From positions 1 to 7,295 of the forward strand of contig CAMEHJ010000053.1 in the NCBI GenBank assembly GCA_945917385.1: a DNA stretch of 7,295 nucleotides. Direction: 5' to 3'. Shown here in pieces: positions 1 to 7,295 of this stretch. The stretch's first letter is position 1, and each line of letters starts with the position of its first letter. The notes below the pieces were generated by a model. It had not been told where the DNA came from, did not search any database, and saw only the letters and a program-made list of their open reading frames with translations. Both the position numbers and the translations under genes were made by a program. The DNA comes from an uncultured bacterium. GTDB taxonomy: Bacteria; Bacillota_A; Clostridia; Oscillospirales; Oscillospiraceae.

Positions 1-656
1 TACGCGCCGATGGGCTTTGACAGCAGCATGACCGCCGCGAGCGCCGCGAGCGTTACCGGCGCAATCACTTTAAGCTCCGCCCACGAGGTGCCGGAGAAGC
101 TGCCCTGCGACCAGTGGTGCAGGTTTACAATATTGGATTCGTCCGCAAAGGTCACGACAAAGTCCGTCACCGCCGAGCAGATGTAGCCTATCATCACGCC
201 GCCGACGATGAGCATCGACATTCTGTTCACCCTGCGCGAAATGAGCAGGATAAAACCCATCGACAGCATTGCGCCTATAAACGCCGCCGCGACCATCCCC
301 GCCGAGCCGACGGCGCGCCCCGCCGACAGCGCAAAAACCATCGTCAGCGCGACGACGAGCTTTGCCCCCGACGATATGCCGAGCACGAACGGCCCCGCGA
401 TGGAGTTTGAAAAAAAGGTCCGGAGCAGAAAGCCCGCCACGGACAGCGCCCCGCCGAGCAGCAGCGCCGACAGCATACGTGGCATACGGATGCCGAAAAC
501 AATGCTGCGCGTCATGCCGTCGCCCGCGCCGAAAAGCGTGCTCGCAAGCTCTTTCGCGCCGATTCGGACGCTGCCGCAGGCGATGTTCCACACGGCAAAT
601 ATTATCAGCAAACACAAAAGCAGTGCAAAGCGCGGAGCCAATGATGCTCGCTTCAT
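1..656 (-). CDS. FecCD/BtuC-type ABC transporter permease, 3' part missing (window edge)
   Basis: This is the membrane permease of an iron-siderophore/heme/cobalamin-class ABC importer (FecCD family), and 218 codons are present. ATG is at 656-654, preceded by a good ribosome binding site (AAAGGAGAGC, complement of 661-670), only 13 bases after the stop of the binding-protein gene. Visible family features, in order, are a first membrane helix (residues about 8-27), the RMPR motif (57-60), LSVAG (71-75), LGISSGA (92-98), further hydrophobic helices at about 100-112, 117-140 and 147-170, and a W-x-Q-G-S-F-S-G segment near 182-189. Family members are usually about 330-350 residues, so roughly one third is missing past the left edge. 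The family motif usually reads Q then N-P in the loop after LSVAG; here R79 and N84-S85 are found. Substrate cannot be read from the sequence, but the B12 riboswitch upstream of the operon argues for a corrinoid or related tetrapyrrole/metal. An ATPase gene is expected next, outside the window. Confidence 0.9.
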   Translation of the reverse strand, partial: MKRASLAPRFALLLCLLIIFAVWNIACGSVRIGAKELASTLFGAGDGMTRSIVFGIRMPRMLSALLLGGALSVAGFLLRTFFSNSIAGPFVLGISSGAKLVVALTMVFALSAGRAVGSAGMVAAAFIGAMLSMGFILLISRRVNRMSMLIVGGVMIGYICSAVTDFVVTFADESNIVNLHHWSQGSFSGTSWAELKVIAPVTLAALAAVMLLSKPIGA

Positions 657-669
657 ACCCGCTCTCCTT

Positions 670-1782
670 TCAGTTCAACTTATACAAAAACCTGAGCTTC
701 GCCGTCTCATCCTCAGCGAACACGGCGTGCATGTCCGCGATAAGCTCACCGAGGCTCATGCTCTGCTGAAAAAGGCTCCTGTCCGTACACCAGACATTGC
801 CCTCGCGCACCGCCTTGAACTCGTAAAGCAGCTCCCACTTGGCACAAAGCTCATCTACGGAAGCGATGCCGCCGTCTATGGCGCTGTTGTAGATGAGCAC
901 GTCGGCGTCGCGCGCCGCGGCATAAAAGCTTTCAAGCTGCATATTCTCGGTGGACAGGGCGCTGTCGTTTTCCGCCTCGCCCTCCGGCAGGTACCGCCCG
1001 CCCGCAAGCTCCACCATCCGGCTGACGTAGCCGCCGGGCTTGTGTACCGTGGCGGAGCCGCTGCCGTTTATGTAGAAAAACGCAGCGCTTTTTCCCGTGG
1101 GCGTGGAGTTCATAAGCTCCCTGACCGCGGCGGTTTTTTCCTCAAATATTTGCCCGGCAAGCTCCTCTTTCCCGAACAGCACACCATAGAGCTTTATCCA
1201 CTCCATGCGGCCGAGCGGGTCATTTTCATAGCTTGAGCGCTCGATCAGCGTCGGTACGCCAAGCTTTGAGAGCTGCTCGATGACCTCCGGCTTATGCAGT
1301 ATCATCGTGGACTCGATTGCAAGGCCGCAGCCGTTTTCCAGAATCGTCTCATAATCGGGGGCGCTGTATTTTCCGGCGTAGAGGATATCGCCGCGCGCCA
1401 TCGCCTCCTCCGCCGCCGGCACATACCAGCCGCTCTCCTGCGTTCCCGACAGCCTGACATGGTCGAGCGCGTCTATCGTGCAGATTAAATCCATCGCGGA
1501 GGTCGCCTGAAGATAGACGTTCTCTATCGGTCTTTGCAGTATGAGCGTACCCTCCGGAACACGCTCCGGCAGCTCACCGTTTTCGGGGATAACGAGATAC
1601 CGGTTCTCACCTATCGTCAGAAGCGTGCTTCCGTCCGCATATCTGTCTATCGTAAATTCCTTCGCATAGGAAAGCTCCACGCGCTCGGGCGCGGACGTCT
1701 CCGCCTGACCTGCGCTTTGCGCCGCGCCGCAGGCGGTGAGAATAAGCGAGACGAGCAAAATCGGTATGATAAGCTTCTTCAT
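670..1782 (-). CDS. ABC transporter substrate-binding lipoprotein (BtuF/FecB-like)
   Basis: This 370-residue protein is the probable extracytoplasmic substrate receptor for the adjacent FecCD-type permease. A lipoprotein signal peptide is seen: K2-K3, a hydrophobic stretch 4-14, and lipobox LTAC with acceptor Cys18. The rest fits the type III periplasmic-binding-protein fold (Peripla_BP_2 family). There is a first lobe at about 75-205, including PLGRMEWIKLYG (189-200) followed by LFGKEELA, a long linking helix around 205-225, and a second lobe ending in the SLGELIADMHAVF helix (343-355) typical of the family C-terminus. The start ATG overlaps the TGA of the upstream gene by four bases (ATGA), which suggests translational coupling; its own ribosome binding site (AGAGAG) is weak. 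The permease follows after 13 bases. Binding could be of cobalamin, a cobamide precursor, heme or a siderophore; the operon's cobalamin riboswitch favours a corrinoid, but this is inference. Confidence 0.9.
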   Translation of the reverse strand: MKKLIIPILLVSLILTACGAAQSAGQAETSAPERVELSYAKEFTIDRYADGSTLLTIGENRYLVIPENGELPERVPEGTLILQRPIENVYLQATSAMDLICTIDALDHVRLSGTQESGWYVPAAEEAMARGDILYAGKYSAPDYETILENGCGLAIESTMILHKPEVIEQLSKLGVPTLIERSSYENDPLGRMEWIKLYGVLFGKEELAGQIFEEKTAAVRELMNSTPTGKSAAFFYINGSGSATVHKPGGYVSRMVELAGGRYLPEGEAENDSALSTENMQLESFYAAARDADVLIYNSAIDGGIASVDELCAKWELLYEFKAVREGNVWCTDRSLFQQSMSLGELIADMHAVFAEDETAKLRFLYKLN

Positions 1783-2642
1783 TCTATGCTCTCTGAATCA
1801 AAACACAGGCTGTATTCTATCTCGTGGGGCGTGCTCATCGCCGTCGTGTTTGCCGCGACGGAGATGGGTCTGTCAAAATACGCGACGGGAATTTCAAACA
1901 GCGACCCGCCGTCATTACTCAGCGCGTCATAGCGCTCATCCCCGACGCGCATATAGTCGTAGCTGCTGCTCGACCAGAGAATGCTCGCAAAAACCTCGCC
2001 GTTTTCCACTCTCATCGCGGCGGGGGACTGTATGCTCGCCCTGCCGGAGCCGCCGGAGAGCGAAACGGCACAGCTATACTCCCCGTCCGATAATCCGAGT
2101 GTCTCCGCCGTCACGAAATACCCGTCGGAAAACGCCTCCGCCGGGAGGGAATCCGCGCGGAAAACGAGCGTTCTGTCGTACCACGCCTCTTTCTTCTTGC
2201 TGAACGCGGCGCAGTCTATGGGCTTATCCAGCGCACTCACAGGTACCGTGAAGCTGTGCGCGCCGTCTGGAAGCTCCTTAAAAGGGATGCACTCGCTGTC
2301 GGGGGCTTTCTCCGCCTCTTCGATCGTACCCATATACACCTTGAGATAGCCCGTGCCGCCCATCGTCATCTCGGCGCTCATCTGCCCGTTTTCGACCGTG
2401 AGCGTGCAGTCAACGATCCTGAACATGGAGGAGCTTGAATCCACCGTTACCGTGTAGCTTCCGTCCTTGAGCGAGTCCGCGTCCACGGGAGACAAATCCG
2501 TCTCAGCCACCGTTGTCTCAGGCTGCGCCGCTTCGGCGTCGGGGGCGGGGGTCGCGGTCGGGTCGGCGGTGGGCTGCGCTGTGCACGCCGTCATTGTGAG
2601 CGTCATTAGCAGCAGCGCGGATATAATAATTTTTCTGAACAT
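1779..2642 (-). CDS. Lipoprotein with two tandem related beta-rich domains (NEAT-like pattern), function unknown
   Basis: This is a 287-residue predicted surface lipoprotein. The signal peptide ends in a lipobox with acceptor Cys20 (MTAC). A Pro/Thr/Ala/Glu-rich linker covers about 21-56. Two domains of similar layout follow. The first (about 60-161) begins DGSYTVTV, has VENGQM at 83-88, an FTVPVSALDKPI segment at 131-142 and ends KEAWYDRTLVF. The second (about 186-281) begins DGEYSCAV, has VENGEV at 212-217, FEIPVAYFDRPI at 249-260 and ends EIEYSLCF. This DG-x-Y start, VxNG turn, (V/I)PV..-(D)-P-I strand and final Y-containing strand resemble the layout of heme-binding NEAT domains, but I cannot confirm membership. 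The first domain carries an aromatic/basic patch (KKKEAWYDR), while the second lacks it, so only one may bind ligand. ATG at 2642-2640 has an AGAGGT ribosome binding site (2647-2652). It sits between the chelatase and the binding protein, so it may capture or hand over the transported ligand. Confidence 0.75.
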   Translation of the reverse strand: MFRKIIISALLLMTLTMTACTAQPTADPTATPAPDAEAAQPETTVAETDLSPVDADSLKDGSYTVTVDSSSSMFRIVDCTLTVENGQMSAEMTMGGTGYLKVYMGTIEEAEKAPDSECIPFKELPDGAHSFTVPVSALDKPIDCAAFSKKKEAWYDRTLVFRADSLPAEAFSDGYFVTAETLGLSDGEYSCAVSLSGGSGRASIQSPAAMRVENGEVFASILWSSSSYDYMRVGDERYDALSNDGGSLFEIPVAYFDRPISVAANTTAMSTPHEIEYSLCFDSESIE

Positions 2643-2660
2643 ATTTACCTCTTTACGGAC

Positions 2661-2692
2661 AGGCGGCAGTTGAATTTTTCAAACTGCCGCCT
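2661..2692 (-). other. Strong intercistronic hairpin between cbiK-like gene and next gene
   Basis: Perfect 11-base inverted repeat (arms 2661-2671 and 2682-2692) with a short AT-rich loop, lying in the 57-base gap between the chelatase stop (2700) and the next start (2642). On the coding (minus) strand no U-run follows it, so it is a poor terminator in that direction and is better read as an mRNA processing or stabilising element. On the plus strand it is followed by a T-rich run (2695-2706), so it could terminate antisense transcripts. Function is inference. Confidence 0.6.
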
Positions 2693-2699
2693 GGTTTTA

Positions 2700-3713
2700 T
2701 TATTTTGCCATGTCTTCCACGGCGGCGCGCGCGTGGCGGACGTAGATATCCCTTATGCTCTCAAGCTGTCCAAGCCCCTCGACGACGCAGAGAACCTCAT
2801 AGCCCTCCGCCTCGAACATGGACTTCCAGCTGTCCTCTTCGTCGCCCGCCATGTCATTGTTGGCGTGGTCGCCGGCGACGACCATCAGCGGGCGGAGCAC
2901 AACACGCTTATAGCTGCCGTTTTTGACAAGCGAGAGTACGGTATCAAGGCTCGGCTCCGCCTCGACAGTGCCGACGAAGTAGTTTTCCGCGCCCATCGCC
3001 GTGAGCGTATCCTGCATTTTCTCGTACACGCCGTTTGAGTCGGCCTCGGTGCCGTGACCCATGAGACATATGGCGGTCTCGCCGTCGTCAAACTCAGCGC
3101 AGGCGTCAACTACCGCCTGTGCGACCGCGGTGAAGTCCTCGTCCGTGTCGAGCAGGGGTCTGCCGACGGATATCCTGTCAAACGCGTCCGCGTAGTTTGC
3201 AAGTTCGTTTACAAGGTCGTTATACTCATAGCCGTCCATCAGGTGCGTGGGGACGACCACAAGCTCCTTCACGCCGTTTGCCGCCGCGCGCTCAAGCGCT
3301 TCGGTGACGTTGTCGATTTTGATATTGTCGCGGCTCAGAACATGGTCAATGATTATCTGACTGGTAAAGCCGCGGCGAACGGAATACTCCGGGAACGCAG
3401 TCTCGATATCGTTCTCGATCGCGCCGATGGTCAGGCGGCGGTTGTCGTTATAGCTCGTGCCGAAGCTGACGACAAGCATTTCGCGCTCCCCGATGCCGTC
3501 CGCGTTTCCGGGATTATCCAGTGAAGCATCACCCGTATTGTAATTTTCCTCGTCTGTCTGCGGTGTCATGGCGGTTTCTGTCTCCTCCGGCTGGGCTGTT
3601 TCTTTTGCGGCGGCTGTCGCTTCCGGCTGGGTCGTCTTTTCTGCGGCCGCTCCGCACGCGCAGAGCGAGAGGGCGATGGCTGCAACGAGCAGCAGTGCTG
3701 TGAGTTTTTTCAT
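2700..3713 (-). CDS. cbiK: Secreted lipoprotein sirohydrochlorin cobaltochelatase-like protein (CbiK family)
   Basis: CbiK-family class II chelatases insert Co2+ (or Fe2+) into sirohydrochlorin in anaerobic cobalamin synthesis. The 337-residue protein has a lipoprotein signal peptide (residues 1-19, lipobox LCAC, Cys20), a Thr/Glu/Ala/Pro-rich linker (about 21-75), then a full chelatase domain (about 78-337): VVSFGTSYND (81-90), PTHLMDGYEY (155-164), LMGHGTEAD (217-225) and PLMVVAGDHANNDMAGD (275-291). The two metal-binding catalytic histidines expected for the family are present (His220 and His283; spacing close to that in Salmonella CbiK), so the site looks intact. ATG at 3713-3711 was chosen because AAAAGGAGA (3721-3729) precedes it and it begins the signal peptide; an upstream in-frame extension would read through the riboswitch leader. 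An exported CbiK has a precedent in the periplasmic heme-binding CbiK(P) of Desulfovibrio. It is the first gene of a B12-riboswitch operon with transporter genes, so a role in external tetrapyrrole or metal handling is more likely than de novo synthesis. Confidence 0.9.
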   Translation of the reverse strand: MKKLTALLLVAAIALSLCACGAAAEKTTQPEATAAAKETAQPEETETAMTPQTDEENYNTGDASLDNPGNADGIGEREMLVVSFGTSYNDNRRLTIGAIENDIETAFPEYSVRRGFTSQIIIDHVLSRDNIKIDNVTEALERAAANGVKELVVVPTHLMDGYEYNDLVNELANYADAFDRISVGRPLLDTDEDFTAVAQAVVDACAEFDDGETAICLMGHGTEADSNGVYEKMQDTLTAMGAENYFVGTVEAEPSLDTVLSLVKNGSYKRVVLRPLMVVAGDHANNDMAGDEEDSWKSMFEAEGYEVLCVVEGLGQLESIRDIYVRHARAAVEDMAK

Positions 3714-3770
3714 ATGTTTTTCTCCTTTTCCGCACAGAGGGTACGGCTTGCTTCCCGAATGACCGCGCGC

Positions 3771-3807
3771 AAAAAGAGAGCCTTTTACCATAAAAACAGT
3801 AAAAGGC
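3771..3807 (-). terminator. Rho-independent terminator downstream of the cobalamin riboswitch
   Basis: On the minus strand a perfect 9-base stem (GCCTTTTAC, 3799-3807, with GTAAAAGGC, 3780-3788) around a 10-base loop is followed by TCTCTTTTT (3771-3779). It lies between the riboswitch aptamer and the start of the chelatase gene, the position of an expression platform, so B12 binding probably causes early transcription stop. The competing antiterminator pairing was not resolved by eye. Confidence 0.8.
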
Positions 3808-3842
3808 CGCACATAACAGTACAGCCAATTCCTCGTAGCCTT

Positions 3843-4035
3843 GGGACTTCTCCCCGTACCAACAGTCCGGCAGGTTTCCTGGCTCACGGATCTGCGTGCG
3901 CCGCCGCCTTCCCAACCCGAAGGTCAGTGGCATTTCGGCTGCGCACTTCCCGAATACAGTGACGAGATCGTACAGGATTCACACCTGTTTCCCTTTTACC
4001 TCCCTCCGCAGCGTAACGCTGTGGGAGCACCGGAT
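3843..4035 (-). promoter_or_regulatory. Cobalamin (AdoCbl-type) riboswitch
   Basis: On the minus strand the leader shows the conserved cobalamin aptamer segments in order: a GGTG..CCC start region (about 4023-4035), GGTGTGAATCC (about 3974-3984), TCACTGT, then AATGCCACTG (about 3925-3934), a GGTTGGGAAGGC segment (about 3906-3917), and the B12 box GAGCCAGGAAACCTGCC (3869-3885). A final GGACT..AGTCC hairpin (about 3845-3869) is the expected L13-type partner of the kissing loop. It ends about 130 bases before the chelatase start and is followed by a terminator, so cobalamin should repress the chelatase/transporter operon. Exact ends are approximate. Confidence 0.93.
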
Positions 4036-4062
4036 GAGTTTCACTATGCTATTGTTGTTCAG

Positions 4063-4091
4063 AATATACCACAAATGCGCGTCTGTGGCAA
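4063..4091 (-). promoter_or_regulatory. Housekeeping promoter of the riboswitch operon, with a palindrome in its spacer
   Basis: Minus strand: -35 TTGCCA (4086-4091), 17-base spacer, -10 TATATT (4063-4068), placing the transcript start near 4056, about 20 bases before the aptamer. Each hexamer matches the SigA consensus in five of six positions. The spacer region carries a dyad (4069-4088, CCACA with TGTGG at its ends and GCGC in the centre; 8 of 10 pairs match), a possible operator. Confidence 0.75.
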
Positions 4092-4114
4092 TAGCTTCAC
4101 ACGCGCCGCGAAAA

Positions 4115-4390
4115 CTATTTCTTCGGCATTGCGCGCTCTATCTCACAGTAGCGCTCGCGTATGCGGTCGTAGTTTTCCGGGATGTGCGGATAGAGACAGC
4201 CTGAGCAGTCCTTGCGCCCGTCCGGCAGGATGCGAAAGCCGCCGCCGCACTTCTCGCCCAGCAGGTACAGCGGGCAGTAGCAGAACAGGCAGTTAAATCT
4301 CTCCGGGTCCGCGCCCTTGTGACAGGGGAAATACTCACACTCCCTGTGGCTGAAAAATTTGTAGTTTGTCTTGTCGTTTTTGGCGTCCAT
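4115..4390 (-). CDS. Small cysteine-rich metal-binding-type protein (Cys-rich small domain, PF04071/COG2158-like)
   Basis: This 91-residue protein holds nine cysteines (18, 23, 34, 37, 39, 48, 62, 65, 82) and several histidines. They are arranged as NYKFFSHRECEYFPCHK (9-25), FNCLFCYCPLY (32-42), EKCGGGF and DCSGCLYPH (61-69), which I recognise as the Cys-rich small domain family. The function is not established; zinc or another metal ligand is presumed. I recall such domains occurring near or fused to cobalamin-synthesis proteins, which fits the B12-riboswitch operon starting 24 bases past its stop. Start 4390 was preferred over an upstream in-frame ATG at 4414 because GGAGA lies 8 bases before it, while the upstream ATG sits at the expected transcript start with no ribosome binding site. 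No terminator is seen after it, so read-through into the riboswitch operon is possible. Confidence 0.8.
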   Translation of the reverse strand: MDAKNDKTNYKFFSHRECEYFPCHKGADPERFNCLFCYCPLYLLGEKCGGGFRILPDGRKDCSGCLYPHIPENYDRIRERYCEIERAMPKK

Positions 4391-4421
4391 TTCCGTTTCT
4401 CCGATATCTTTCATTATTATA

Positions 4422-4427
4422 ATTATA
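4422..4427 (-). promoter_or_regulatory. -10 box (TATAAT) of the Cys-rich protein gene
   Basis: A consensus TATAAT on the minus strand lies just after the terminator of the preceding unit and about 32 bases before the chosen start codon. The -35 region 17 bases upstream (TTTTCC) is poor, and a second TATAAT-like run follows, so the exact promoter is uncertain. Confidence 0.5.
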
Positions 4428-4440
4428 CCACCGCGCGCAG

Positions 4441-4479
4441 AAAAGGAAAAGCCCCGGACGGCGCTGTGTCCGTCCGGGG
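4441..4479 (-). terminator. Rho-independent terminator after the ECF S-component gene
   Basis: On the minus strand a perfect 10-base GC-rich stem (CCCCGGACGG, 4470-4479, with CCGTCCGGGG, 4452-4461; 8-base loop) is followed by CTTTTCCTTTT. It lies 20 bases past the stop of the S-component gene and separates that unit from the Cys-rich gene. Confidence 0.9.
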
Positions 4480-4498
4480 GGCAGGTTTTTCCGGTATT

Positions 4499-5017
4499 TT
4501 ATTTGCAGAATTTCTCCCACGCGGCGAGAAGTCTCGTCTTGAAGCAGAGCAGAAGTCCCACGACCGCGCCGACGACGGCCTGAAGGATCTGGAACGGGAG
4601 CTTCATAATCGCATAGGCGGGCGTGCTGTATATAAACGCGCGGCCGAGCGTGTAGCCCACGACCATTATTACAACGCCGAGCGCAACGCCTATGAGCGTT
4701 CTCACAAAGCCGGACTGCGCGTTATCCTTATGCGCAAGCAGCGAGATGACCAGCGCCTGAAGGCCGTGCACCGCAAGCGAGACGAACATCGGCGTGGGGT
4801 AGAAGAAGAAGTCGCCGAGAAACGCACCGATGCCTCCTACCAGAAAAGCGCCGAGCGGGTCGAGCAGTATGGCGGCGGTGACGATGATGATATCATTGAG
4901 GTACAGATGCCCGCCGGGGACGGGAATGCTGAACGAGCTGAGCGCAATGTTCATCGCCATGAACACGGCGCAGACGGTTATCCATTTTGTCGGGTGCGAC
5001 TGACGCAAGCTTTTCAT
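4499..5017 (-). CDS. ECF transporter S component (substrate-capture membrane protein)
   Basis: S components are small integral membrane proteins that bind a vitamin or similar micronutrient and dock onto a shared energising module (EcfT with ATPases EcfA/EcfA'). This 172-residue protein has the family size and about six hydrophobic segments. Characteristic segments are an N-terminal helix ending ALSSFSIPVPGGHLYLND, then a DPLGAFLVGGIGAFLGDFFFY stretch split by small residues, and a helix with VSLAVHGLQALVISLL. This pattern fits the riboflavin/HmpT-like S-component superfamily. The substrate cannot be assigned, and no known riboswitch was recognised upstream. Start 5017 is chosen because GAGGT lies about 7 bases before it; an in-frame ATG at 5050 lacks a clear ribosome binding site. 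The gene follows the TtcA-family gene by 101 bases with no clear terminator, and ends at a strong terminator. EcfT/EcfA are not in the window, as is usual for unlinked S components. Confidence 0.85.
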   Translation of the reverse strand: MKSLRQSHPTKWITVCAVFMAMNIALSSFSIPVPGGHLYLNDIIIVTAAILLDPLGAFLVGGIGAFLGDFFFYPTPMFVSLAVHGLQALVISLLAHKDNAQSGFVRTLIGVALGVVIMVVGYTLGRAFIYSTPAYAIMKLPFQILQAVVGAVVGLLLCFKTRLLAAWEKFCK

Positions 5018-5020
5018 AAA

Positions 5021-5050
5021 ATGACCTCGCTTCTTATTTTTCCAGGTCAT
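5021..5050 (-). promoter_or_regulatory. Inverted repeat covering the S-component ribosome binding site
   Basis: A perfect 7-base inverted repeat, ATGACCT (5044-5050 on the minus strand) and AGGTCAT (5021-5027), with a 16-base AT-rich loop. The 3' arm contains the GAGGT ribosome binding site of the ECF S-component gene, so the fold would hide it. A second ATGACC/GGTCAT pair (5101-5122) lies upstream and overlaps the ttcA stop codon. Either RNA-level control or a protein operator is possible. Confidence 0.45.
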
Positions 5051-5118
5051 AATAACATCGTTCTGGTTATTTGAATATCACCAAAGCAAGATTATTTTAT
5101 ATGACCAGTTTGTGCGGG

Positions 5119-5874
5119 TCATTTGTCGTCTTTTCTTGTTCTGTAGCTCGGAAGCGGCTCCCAGCCGGGGAGCGGCTGGCGCTGCATGGCGCCGAAGATC
5201 TTGCTCTTCATGTCGGGGTAATCGCGGCAGAGGGCAGACAGCAGCTTCTTTATCTCGTAGCGCTTGCTCGCCTTGTCCTGCGGGCAGGGGTTTTCAACGA
5301 TGGGAACGTTCAGCGCGGCGGCGACGTTCGCTATCTTCTGCTCGCCGCAGTAGACGAGCGGGCGTATCTGCGTGACGCCGCTGCGGTCAAGGAAGGTCAC
5401 GGGGCGAAAACAGCTTATGCGTCCCTCAAAAAGCAGGCTCATCATAAAGGTCTCGACGGCGTCGTCAAAATGGTGGCCGAGGGCGAGCTTGGTTATGCCC
5501 CGCGACCTGATAATGTCGTTGAGCGCGCCGCGGCGCATCTTCGCGCAGAGCGAGCAGGGGTTATCCTCCTTGCGCACGTCAAAGACGATCTCCTTGATAT
5601 CCGTCTTGACGCAGGTATAGGGTATCTCAAGGCGCTCGCAAAGCTCCTTGACGGGGGTAAAATCCATGCCCTCGAAGCCCAGCTCTATCGTGACCGCCTC
5701 AAGCTCAAAGTGCCGGGGGTAGTATTTTTTCAGGTGGTTGAGGGCGAGGAGCAGCAGCATACTGTCCTTCCCGCCGGACACGCCGACGGCGACCTTGTCC
5801 CCCTCCTGTATCATTTCATAGTCGTCCACGGCGCGGCGCACCATGCCTGTAAATTCGTTGAGCAGTTTGTCCAT
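5119..5874 (-). CDS. ttcA: TtcA-family tRNA thiolation enzyme (PP-loop ATPase)
   Basis: TtcA-family enzymes activate a tRNA base with ATP and add sulfur, classically making 2-thiocytidine at position 32, in the cytoplasm. In the 251-residue protein the PP-loop SGGKDS is at residues 33-38. The iron-sulfur ligands typical of the family appear as the C-S-L-C pair (107 and 110, in NPCSLCAKMRRG) and Cys197 in ENPCP. LGHHFDDAVET is at 132-142, and PLVYC near 173-176 lines the usual C-terminal part. Length is near but a little under that of E. coli TtcA. Start 5874 was chosen because GAGGATC lies 8-14 bases upstream; an in-frame ATG at 5889 has no ribosome binding site. All catalytic elements look intact. 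In Firmicutes the exact target base is less certain, so the related 2-thiouridine or other thiolation roles cannot be excluded. It probably shares a transcript with the ECF S component downstream. Confidence 0.88.
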   Translation of the reverse strand: MDKLLNEFTGMVRRAVDDYEMIQEGDKVAVGVSGGKDSMLLLLALNHLKKYYPRHFELEAVTIELGFEGMDFTPVKELCERLEIPYTCVKTDIKEIVFDVRKEDNPCSLCAKMRRGALNDIIRSRGITKLALGHHFDDAVETFMMSLLFEGRISCFRPVTFLDRSGVTQIRPLVYCGEQKIANVAAALNVPIVENPCPQDKASKRYEIKKLLSALCRDYPDMKSKIFGAMQRQPLPGWEPLPSYRTRKDDK

Positions 5875-5915
5875 GGCAGAGATCCTCATAAATTAAAAAT
5901 TCAAATCCAGTATAA

Positions 5916-5950
5916 CGGAGAATTTGAGAGTATTCCGGAGAATTTGAGAG
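5916..5950. repeat. Pair of 15-base direct repeats upstream of ttcA
   Basis: CGGAGAATTTGAGAG occurs at 5916-5930 and again at 5936-5950, identical, with a 20-base period (about two helical turns, same DNA face). It lies 42-76 bases before the ttcA start and overlaps a candidate minus-strand promoter, so it may be a repressor or activator site. No regulator gene is nearby. Confidence 0.6.
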
Positions 5951-5958
5951 ATTGTAAA
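5929..5958 (-). promoter_or_regulatory. Candidate promoter of the ttcA unit
   Basis: Minus strand: -35 TTTACA (5953-5958), 18-base spacer, -10 AATACT (5929-5934). The direct-repeat copies occupy the spacer and the region just past the -10, so binding there would affect initiation. An alternative -10 (TATACT near 5907-5912) has no good -35. Confidence 0.4.
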
Positions 5959-5977
5959 ATCAGGATTAAAATAGGTG

Positions 5978-6006
5978 TTGACTTGCAAAAGTTCTTGTGA
6001 TATAAA
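5978..6006 (+). promoter_or_regulatory. Strong plus-strand promoter for the rplM-rpsI operon
   Basis: TTGACT (5978-5983), 17-base spacer, TATAAA (6001-6006); both hexamers match the SigA consensus in five of six positions. Start of transcription is expected near 6013, giving a leader of about 237 bases that contains the palindromic repeat. A weaker promoter candidate (TTGAAG 6158-6163, TATGAA 6182-6187) lies nearer the gene, partly in the right arm of that repeat. Confidence 0.65.
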
Positions 6007-6037
6007 GATAAAGCGCGTTTGAGGTACTAATTCTTGA

Positions 6038-6172
6038 TAAAAAGATTCAATCAGCAGCGCAGGTATATTGGTGCAAGACAAGGCAGCGGAGCGCCGCCAT
6101 GCTTTGTGTATGGTAAGCGACGATAACGCAGTATTGCGCCAATAGACCAAGCTGATATTGAAGATTTTTATT
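6038..6172. repeat. Imperfect palindromic element of about 135 bases (MITE/REP-like)
   Basis: The left arm (6038-6076) and right arm (6134-6172) are imperfect inverted copies: reading each inward gives an A-rich end, TCAAT..CAGC, GGT.TATTGG.GCAA. The central part (6077-6133) contains a further hairpin (CAAGGCA..TGCTTTG around a GC-rich core, about 6079-6106) and a segment near AAGCGACGATAACGCAG. It encodes no convincing protein and differs in composition from the AT-rich flanks. This looks like a non-autonomous dispersed repeat in the rplM leader; copy number elsewhere cannot be seen here. Confidence 0.5.
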
Positions 6173-6249
6173 AAAAATTAGTATGAAAAATATTTTAATG
6201 TCAAACGCCTGAATTGTCAAAACTTTTTAATTCTATACGGAGGCCGAAT

Positions 6250-6678
6250 ATGTCTACTACCATGGTAACCAAGGAGACCGTACAGCGCAAGTGGTACGTC
6301 CTTGACGCAGCAGGCAAGCCCATGGGCAAAACCGCTGCTCTCGCCGCTGACCTTCTCCGCGGCAAGCTCAAAACCGACTACACCCCGCACGTTGACTGCG
6401 GCGATTACGTCATCATCATCAACGCCAAGGACGCTGTCCTCACCGGCAAAAAGCTGGAGCAGAAGTACTACCGCACTCACTCCGGTTTCCCCGGCGGTCT
6501 GAAGGAGACTCAGTACAAGACTCTCATGCAGAAGAAGCCTGAGCTTGCTATGCGCCTCGCTGTCCGCGGCATGCTTCAGAAGAACACCATCGCCCAGTGG
6601 CAGCTCAAGCGCCTGAGAATCTTCGCCGGCGCCGAGCACACCCACGCAGCGCAGAAGCCCGAAGTCTGGGATCGCTAA
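6250..6678 (+). CDS. rplM: 50S ribosomal protein L13
   Basis: L13 is an early-assembling protein of the large ribosomal subunit. The 142-residue product has the typical family length and the expected segments: KWYVLDAAGKPMGKTAALAA (14-33), LRGKLKTDYTPHVDCGDYV near 36-54, NAKDAVLTGKKLEQKYYRTH (57-76) and the LAVRGML..N segment followed by a short basic C-terminus (RLRIFAGAEHTH). Start 6250 follows a consensus GGAGG (6239-6243) by 6 bases; an in-frame ATG at 6214 lies in non-conserved leader sequence. Codon choice is strongly biased (CTC, GGC, AAG, CGC), as expected for a highly expressed gene and unlike the neighbouring genes. rpsI follows after 14 bases in the near-universal bacterial pairing. 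In other Firmicutes an L13 leader RNA autoregulates this operon; I could not identify that fold here. Confidence 0.98.
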   Translation: MSTTMVTKETVQRKWYVLDAAGKPMGKTAALAADLLRGKLKTDYTPHVDCGDYVIIINAKDAVLTGKKLEQKYYRTHSGFPGGLKETQYKTLMQKKPELAMRLAVRGMLQKNTIAQWQLKRLRIFAGAEHTHAAQKPEVWDR

Positions 6679-6692
6679 GGAGGTAAAGAAAT

Positions 6693-7103
6693 ATGGCAAC
6701 CTATAAGTGCAAGAAGCCCTATATGTACGGCACCGGACGCAGAAAGTCCTCCGTCGCACGCGTTCACCTCATCCCCAACGGCACCGGTGCTATCACCATC
6801 AACGGCCGTGACATCGACGACTACTTCGGTCTCGAAACTCTCAAGCTGATCGTCCGTCAGCCCCTGGTCGCCACCGCGACCGTCGGCAAGGTCGATATCG
6901 AAGCTACCGTCTCCGGCGGCGGCGTTTCCGGTCAGGCCGGCGCAATCCGCCACGGTATCGCCCGCGCACTGCTCCTCGTTGACGACAGCTACCGCGCAGC
7001 TCTCAAGGCCGCAGGCTTCCTGACTCGCGACCCGAGAATGAAAGAGCGTAAAAAGTACGGTCTCAAAGCAGCCCGTCGCGCTCCGCAGTTCAGCAAGAGA
7101 TAA
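6693..7103 (+). CDS. rpsI: 30S ribosomal protein S9
   Basis: S9 is a small-subunit head protein whose C-terminal tail reaches the P-site tRNA. The 136-residue product shows the family motifs: [13 protein letters not shown] (12-24), [10 protein letters not shown] (36-45), [21 protein letters not shown] (73-93) and the C-terminal [27 protein letters not shown] with the conserved final Ser-Lys-Arg. It is a few residues longer than the common 130, mainly at the N-terminus ([11 protein letters not shown]). A strong AAGGAGGT (6677-6684) overlaps the rplM stop codon and sits 8 bases before the ATG. It shares highly biased codon use with rplM and ends 10 bases before a terminator, so the pair forms a complete operon. 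Confidence 0.98.
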
Positions 7104-7113
7104 TTTGTATATC

Positions 7114-7147
7114 AAAGAGCACCGCTTCACGGCAGTGCTCTTTTCAT
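7114..7147 (+). terminator. Rho-independent terminator of rplM-rpsI
   Basis: Perfect 9-base stem AAAGAGCAC (7114-7122) with GTGCTCTTT (7135-7143), extended by two more GC pairs after one mismatch, loop TTCACG, then TTTTCATT. It starts 10 bases past the rpsI stop. Confidence 0.85.
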
Positions 7148-7295
7148 TATCCCGAAACAGAATTATAATAGTCCAACGGGAGTTGAACACTCACCGCATT
7201 TGAGCGGCACTGTCGGGCTGCTTTTGATTTGTCGTCCTCGACTTGCGACAGCAAGCCTTCGTCCTCCGCACCAAAATCAGCTCCGATATTACTCG
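7148..7295. other. Unassigned right-edge region
   Basis: No recognised gene. A minus-strand frame stays open from 7295 to a TAA at 7147-7149 (49 codons) but shows no known motif and low-complexity composition. The segment contains small palindromes such as TTGCGACAGCAA (about 7242-7253) and resembles the kind of intergenic repeat seen in gut Clostridia. It could be the end of a gene beyond the edge or part of a dispersed repeat. Confidence 0.3.

Follow-up and report, generated by a model that had tools for sequence, protein, structure and literature searches.

A cobalamin riboswitch operon with an exported CbiK-family chelatase and tandem NEAT domains: a candidate uptake system for tetrapyrrole precursors of cobamides in Clostridia

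A 7,295-nucleotide stretch of an uncultured Oscillospiraceae bacterium (assembly GCA_945917385.1, contig CAMEHJ010000053.1, positions 1 to 7,295; hereafter the window) carries a gene set in which a cobalamin riboswitch and a terminator-like hairpin are followed by three lipoprotein genes and a gene for a FecCD-type permease. The lipoproteins are a CbiK-family chelatase, a protein with two NEAT-fold domains, and a substrate-binding protein. Every gene and RNA element of the operon lies on the minus strand. The genes downstream of the riboswitch look like one operon because the stop of the NEAT lipoprotein gene and the start of the binding-protein gene overlap by 4 bases and the permease gene starts 13 bases past the binding-protein stop. 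Here, we describe this gene set, its relatives, and its hosts, and weigh whether it may take up an external tetrapyrrole precursor of cobamides.

The RF00174 covariance model matched 3852..4049 (minus strand) over its full length (positions 1-189 of 189) with 107.1 bits, above the gathering score of 31.5 (E 8.9e-27); this bears out the cobalamin riboswitch that a preliminary description, made from the sequence alone, had placed ahead of the gene set. Just 5' of the aptamer, a promoter-like site (TTGCCA-17-TATATT; 4063..4091, minus strand) agrees with the consensus at 10 of 12 positions and has a TG before the second hexamer. Four sites of such quality occur in 600-4500, against 1.4 in shuffled sequences, and the match does not count as evidence of a function. 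Between the aptamer and the first gene lies a hairpin (3779..3808, minus strand) that resembles a terminator, with a stem of 13 pairs and a T-rich tail; it is the putative expression platform of the riboswitch, and a second hairpin at 3826-3805 overlaps it. Terminator-like sites number 13 in 600-4500 compared with 4.2 in shuffles, and one such match alone is weak. The RNA of 3850-3735 (116 nt) was predicted to fold with -39.6 kcal/mol (z -2.37), a value equalled by 2 of 200 shuffles. A GC-rich inverted repeat was also noticed by eye between the chelatase and NEAT genes (2655-2700); its T run is on the plus strand, which sets it apart from an ordinary operon terminator.

The first gene (2700..3713, minus strand) encodes a 337-amino-acid (aa) chelatase lipoprotein that passes the cut-off of the Pfam CbiK family PF06180 (266.6 bits vs 26.2) and stays below that of the NCBIfam CbiK equivalog model (217.6 of 400 bits). 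In Salmonella CbiK, a Glu and two His have metal-site roles. Residues E163, H220, and H283 of the window protein align with E89, H145, and H207 of the Salmonella enzyme, and across 56 aligned rows they are conserved in 56/56, 56/56, and, with one gap, 55/55 rows. These rows include both copies of locus L030 and the cytoplasmic CbiK of L055; loci that repeat others (L035-L054, L056, and L085) were left out here and in the NEAT residue counts below. The window protein thus shares its family and its metal site with the sirohydrochlorin cobaltochelatase CbiK (1qgo), and differs from it in carrying a lipobox, in being encoded in an import operon, and in its NCBIfam score.

By its sequence, the window CbiK is not cytoplasmic. 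Its signal ends in a lipobox (...LSLCACG), as do those of the NEAT lipoprotein (...LTMTACT) and the binding protein (...LILTACG), so the three consecutive lipoprotein signals noted earlier were found as described. A scan with the window CbiK returned 35 loci, of which L035 was dropped since it shares a contig with L030; the remaining 34 were found by the window's own CbiK and are relatives, not an independent sample. All 34 chelatases carry an export signal, 22 a lipobox and 12 a Sec-type signal. This classification was made partly by eye: the script flagged 24 lipoboxes, L008 and L014 were added, and L010-L012 and L031 were moved to the Sec group. The export of CbiK proposed in the preliminary description therefore extends to its relatives. 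CbiKp of Desulfovibrio vulgaris, which we take to be PDB entry 2xvx ('chelatase, putative'), is periplasmic. Among the best 120 of 7995 CbiK homologues, many relatives (567-589 aa) have about twice the length of CbiK, and one (P0122) is a tandem CbiK-CbiK protein; one locus, L025, has the order CbiK-CbiK-NEAT.

The second gene (1779..2642, minus strand) encodes a 287-aa lipoprotein whose two halves share 29% identity over 92 aa (E 1e-6). The preliminary description had rightly called it a two-domain lipoprotein and had missed what the domains are. A fold search with the predicted model (predicted local distance difference test, pLDDT, 87) returned NEAT domains as the best PDB matches, with the NEAT beta-sandwich fold; on this model the protein is a tandem of NEAT-fold domains. 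Domain 1 covers residues 56-165 (2148..2477, minus strand) and domain 2 residues 181-287 (1782..2102, minus strand). The fold search decided the assignment, as a sequence search of the tandem against the PDB gave weak matches only and the protein did not reach the gathering cut-off of the NEAT family PF05031 (19.3 vs 32.8 bits, E 0.0016). PF05031 is present in many of the best 120 of 5467 homologues of the NEAT protein, and also on two CbiK relatives (P0228 and P0231) among the 120 best mentioned above.

The two domains have different signatures: M73, K151, and W154-Y155 in domain 1, and GGSG, M269, H273, and Y277 in domain 2. Over 54 rows, M73 is conserved in 53/53, W154 and Y155 in 51/51 with a residue there, and K151 in 45/53 (one alignment, A1, comprised the window protein and 34 of the 120 best homologues). 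The haem-ligating motif of NEAT domains is YxxxY. At this position, domain 1 reads KxxxY and domain 2 HxxxY, in a register assumed from the conserved motifs.

The third gene (670..1782, minus strand) encodes a 370-aa substrate-binding lipoprotein of the Peripla_BP_2 family (PF01497, 86.4 bits). Its model (pLDDT 89) resembles haem-, siderophore-, and B12-binding proteins, and no single one stands out; the BtuF structure 5ysc ranks 34 among the matches. The FecCD-type permease (1..656, minus strand), whose 3' end lies beyond the window edge, matches positions 1-199 of the 311 of PF01032 with 131.8 bits; this incomplete permease scores 92.4 of 334 bits against the NCBIfam BtuC model. The importer labels BtuF-like and BtuC-like of the preliminary description hence stand at the level of the two superfamilies and not beyond. 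BtuF-like was dropped, since the fold does not distinguish the ligand.

The gene order is widely kept among the 34 relatives, which come mostly from metagenome-assembled genomes (MAGs) of gut and rumen Clostridia (Lachnospiraceae, Oscillospiraceae, and others), and in one case from Atopobiaceae. A NEAT gene follows or is fused to CbiK in 30 of 32 loci with a continuing contig (L013 and L031 end; L014 and L021 are exceptions). The binding protein comes next in 27 of 30 testable loci (not testable: L011, L013, L029, and L031; exceptions: L014, L025, and L032), in agreement with the earlier placement of chelatase and transporter in one operon, and FecCD follows it in 23 of 25 (not testable: L003 and L016; exceptions: L006 and L015). 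A cobalamin riboswitch, also anticipated, precedes CbiK in 27 of 31 testable loci, with L006, L010, and L026 too near a contig end. The L030/L035 contig holds part of the operon twice, inverted, with two riboswitch pairs, and is likely an assembly palindrome or a recent inverted duplication.

The two NEAT halves tend to have different partners, as separate genes and fusions indicate. CbiK-NEAT fusions occur in seven loci (L009, L018, L019, L020, L025, L032, and L033) and a NEAT-NEAT-binding-protein fusion in L006. In the class-level genome sample described below, domain 2 and the binding protein form one fused protein in L069-L071, L073-L075, and L080, and where the domains are separate genes, domain 1 lies by CbiK and domain 2 by the binding protein (L058-L063, L081, L082, and L084).

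The operon often continues into corrin synthesis. Twenty loci extend at least 900 bases past the ATP-binding cassette (ABC) ATPase gene, and in 12 of them (L001, L004, L005, L007, L008, L009, L018-L020, L024, L030, and L033) a cobamide-synthesis gene, CbiD or CbiP-like, overlaps it or lies within about 60 bases. L036 presents a single run of a CbiK-NEAT fusion, the binding protein, FecCD, ABC, CbiD, F, G, H, J, E-T, and A, which ends in CobT, CobU, CobS, CobC-like, CbiB, CobD-like, CbiP-like, and BtuR.

The corresponding 34 host genomes were scored for ring-making capacity. CbiD was found in 33 and CbiC in 30, HemB and HemC in 8 each, and CobA above cut-off in 9. HemB, HemC, and CobA are all absent from 24 hosts, 23 of them with CbiD (the other, G029, also lacks CbiD and CbiC), and all present in 6. 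Random gaps in MAGs would not be expected to give a split so close to all or nothing. One CobA-bearing genome, G005, has a complete hemL-hemB-cobA/hemD-hemC cluster on stretch L051. A genome with corrin genes and without HemB, HemC, and CobA needs a preformed methylated ring, i.e., precorrin-2, sirohydrochlorin, or a metal form; judged by their gene content, the hosts with CbiD and without these three look like precorrin-2-type salvagers. The preliminary description had also raised the question of a second, cytoplasmic CbiK. In a CbiK-model scan of 10 genomes, eight had a single CbiK, all without CobA, and two had a second copy, both with CobA; in G005, the N-terminus of this second copy has no signal peptide. 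With the CbiX model PF01903, second open reading frames (ORFs) occurred only in CobA-bearing genomes (5/9: G005, G009, G023, G026, and G033). No second chelatase ORF was found with this model in the 25 CobA-lacking genomes, which is weak evidence from an insensitive probe: G032, which has an exported CbiK, gave no match at all, and the second ORF of G033 scored under the cut-off.

A sample of 393 class-level genomes, with a completeness of 90 requested, was scanned with a NEAT-tandem profile; a sub-cut-off HemC match of G200, which lacks CbiD, was dropped. The profile matched 25 genomes, 24 with CbiD, vs 100 with CbiD among the 368 others. The NEAT family thus occurs in 24 of 124 genomes with CbiD and in 1 of 269 without. 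Among CbiD-bearing genomes, it is present in 14 of 32 that lack HemC vs 10 of 92 that have it (Fisher p 1.5e-4, uncorrected for kinship). In 20 of these 25 genomes, the short NEAT locus also contains CbiK; in three (G110, G132, and G219) it contains the binding protein only and in two (G035 and G249) neither. The sample supports a link of the NEAT family with precursor salvage.

The simplest reading of the gene group suggests a system that would capture a ring, charge it with cobalt, and import it. We consider it slightly more probable than an even call that the system takes up a cobamide precursor from outside the cell, a tetrapyrrole that already carries methyl groups. The precursor would be of the sirohydrochlorin (factor II) type and, possibly, in some hosts of the C20-methylated factor III type. 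When cobamide is scarce, the riboswitch would let transcription past the terminator, as its architecture suggests. The surface NEAT domains would then bind the ring, with CbiK as the partner of domain 1 and the binding protein as that of domain 2, a pairing that follows from gene adjacency and fusion. Surface CbiK, with its metal site and export signal, would insert Co2+ or swap the metal outside the cell. The binding protein, FecCD permease, and ABC ATPase would, from their families, import the cobalt ring, and cytoplasmic enzymes from CbiL or CbiH onward would complete the corrin, with cobamide genes lying in the same run at 12 of the 20 loci. In hosts that also make the ring, the system would act as a scavenger; since some hosts do so, scavenging must occur too. 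Cobalt insertion is a committed step of anaerobic B12 synthesis. We hold tentatively, at rather less than even weight, that this step has moved outside the cell, where NEAT and CbiK in a surface complex would load cobalt into an isobacteriochlorin that neighbours release; the cobalt form would then be imported. On this view, many hosts have lost HemB, HemC, and CobA and also a cytoplasmic CbiK. Since CbiL, too, was not found in 15 of the 34 hosts, exchange between gut bacteria may extend to intermediates as late as factor III.

Several observations weigh against precursor import as the general function. The system is not confined to salvagers, as CobA occurs in 9 of the 34 hosts, and four hosts are mixed (G017, G023, and G026 have CobA and one other; G027 has HemB only). 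In the class sample, 10 of the 24 genomes with NEAT and CbiD have HemC, so that full producers carry the system too, and a NEAT match is absent from 18 of the 32 genomes with CbiD and without HemC. Eight of the 20 extended loci have no following cobamide genes (L002, L010, L017, L021, L023, and L026-L028). No riboswitch was found at L001, L003, L007, and L009, even by a lax Rfam search at E 1; L021 lacks the NEAT gene, and in L006, L014, L015, L025, and L032 some of the later genes are not close by. The host genomes are for the most part MAGs of unreported completeness, and the genome-wide scoring of the pathway covered HemB, HemC, CobA, CbiD, CbiC, and CbiL. In the tree, the window CbiK is nearest to L010-L012, whose hosts have CobA, and its highest identity among the scanned loci is 74%, to L001, whose host lacks CobA; the window's host may hence be a scavenger or a salvager.

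The nature of the ring is a further difficulty. CbiL was found in 19 of the 34 hosts, 16 above cut-off, and is also absent from 14 of the 23 CbiD-bearing hosts without HemB, HemC, and CobA. Fifteen hosts lack both CobA and CbiL (G001, G002, G004, G007, G008, G010, G011, G014, G015, G019, G022, G024, G025, G029, and G031), so that import of sirohydrochlorin alone does not account for every host. Without CbiL, a C20-methylated ring is needed, unless another enzyme acts. TP-methylase matches in these 15 number four in ten genomes, five in G002, G008, and G031, three in G022, and one in G029. Where readable, the four are CbiF, CbiH, CbiE, and an RsmI-like protein by score and place; the fifth in G002, G008, and G031 could be a divergent C20 methyltransferase. 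The ring that enters the corrin pathway of these hosts may be C20-methylated already, or an unrecognised enzyme may act. After a recount, our confidence in precursor import, and separately in extracellular cobalt insertion, was lowered slightly because of these fifth methylases and the weak chelatase probe.

Other functions were weighed against the same evidence. An importer of finished corrinoids (cobamide or cobinamide) of the BtuFCD type, to which NEAT and CbiK were added as binders without chelatase turnover, would share with BtuFCD the riboswitch class and the PF01497/PF01032 transporter superfamilies; it would also accommodate the presence of BtuF 5ysc, beside binders of haem and siderophores, among the matches of the binding-protein model, and the tie of the NEAT family to cobamide metabolism, with CbiD in all but one of the NEAT-bearing genomes. 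We nevertheless judge it unlikely. BtuFCD has neither the surface chelatase and NEAT parts nor the frequent placement with ring-synthesis genes, which a finished corrinoid makes needless; every chelatase metal residue is kept, which is unexpected in a mere binder; and NEAT is enriched in HemC-lacking genomes. The permease does not reach the NCBIfam BtuC cut-off, but it is truncated at the window edge. A cobalt-gathering role, in which exported CbiK and the NEAT domains would bind cobalt, free or complexed, so that it can be imported for its metal, appears very improbable. CbiK does bind Co2+ in relatives, but the cargo of FecCD systems is large chelates and the ligands of NEAT folds are tetrapyrroles, and cobalt gathering leaves unexplained both the missing ring-making genes and the lack of a second CbiK in 8/8 scanned CobA-lacking genomes. 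The cobamide-operon context in genomes without HemB, HemC, and CobA argues for B12 precursor import rather than cobalt buffering. Of the model offered in the preliminary description, a surface chelatase that acts on a tetrapyrrole beside an importer fits best, and its alternative of cobalt buffering is less favoured. A precedent for cobalt gathering is a TonB receptor behind an adenosylcobalamin riboswitch, which a passage of PMC7689651 takes to serve cobalt.

Haem use is the remaining alternative: NEAT would take haem, surface CbiK would strip its iron by reverse chelation, as suggested for IhtB/FetB of Porphyromonas gingivalis, and the products would be imported. The NEAT fold is that of haem-binding proteins, and the best PDB match of the window CbiK is 'heme-binding protein FetB' (9b86, E 9e-45; organism from a passage of PMC13402209), likewise an exported CbiK-like protein. 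Passages in the literature suggest that IhtB removes iron from haem (PMC6460266) and that FetB makes Mn-protoporphyrin (PMC13402209). However, FetB, described as a haem/protoporphyrin protein, falls outside the exported clade in a small midpoint-rooted tree of 58 rows, in which FetB, Salmonella CbiK, and one cytoplasmic CbiK were the only outgroups. The present system also differs from Isd/Hal-type NEAT haem uptake in its cobalamin riboswitch, its location in cobamide operons, its chelatase partner, and, in the assumed register, the altered axial position where KxxxY and HxxxY replace YxxxY. In addition, unpublished data cited in a passage of PMC6460266 report that loss of a cobalt-chelatase gene in Bacteroides fragilis had no effect on haem-iron use. 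On balance, haem use seems improbable.

A cysteine-rich small protein of the zf-like family PF04071 (4115..4414, minus strand; 90.1 bits) is encoded 5' of the riboswitch. Its relatives are fused to the ABC ATPase of the operon in L001 and L009, stand just before the riboswitch and CbiK-NEAT in L032, and adjoin cbi genes in L043, L046, and L048; from these positions, it is a probable further component of the system and may handle metal or ring at the cytoplasmic side. A literature search that linked PF04071 with cobalamin found no paper. In L010, L012, L021-L024, L030, and L033, the ABC ATPase has another C-terminal extension of about 122-134 aa, of FVIAGGGSGIPVYRRL type in several. Upstream of the operon in the window, at 4499-5050, lies the S component of an energy-coupling factor (ECF) transporter of the riboflavin/folate type.

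The hosts resemble the tetrapyrrole precursor salvagers of Shelton et al. (PMC6461909), which have a corrin pathway without ring-making genes and among which a precorrin-2 class is listed; the passages considered name no importer, and the present system is a candidate. Precorrin-2 salvagers had been predicted earlier, at 0.6% of genomes, according to an excerpt of PMC8123684. Three species were tested for dependence on 5-aminolevulinate, which is, in the excerpts of PMC6461909, the only such dependence verified among salvagers. Passages of PMC12654859 mention that sirohydrochlorin cobaltochelatase transports sirohydrochlorin too, and describe a rumen operational taxonomic unit (OTU), Bt-995, that has genes for the corrin ring and transporters labelled BtuFCD, has none for the early tetrapyrrole steps, and is assigned there to the cobinamide salvagers. 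Our literature searches on combinations of riboswitch, NEAT, chelatase, and lipoprotein showed no such system among the matches listed, and no paper combining 'NEAT domain' with 'CbiK' was found in a search mostly outside the subscription literature, from which absence in print is not claimed.

If precursor import is true, the operon would provide a concrete importer for the predicted precorrin-2-type salvagers and would name compounds exchanged in gut and rumen. It would put a B12 biosynthetic step outside the cell and extend the ligands of NEAT domains to a new class. The retention of an exported CbiK relative in P. gingivalis, which a passage of PMC6461909 reports to be without precorrin-2 synthesis, may also become easier to understand.

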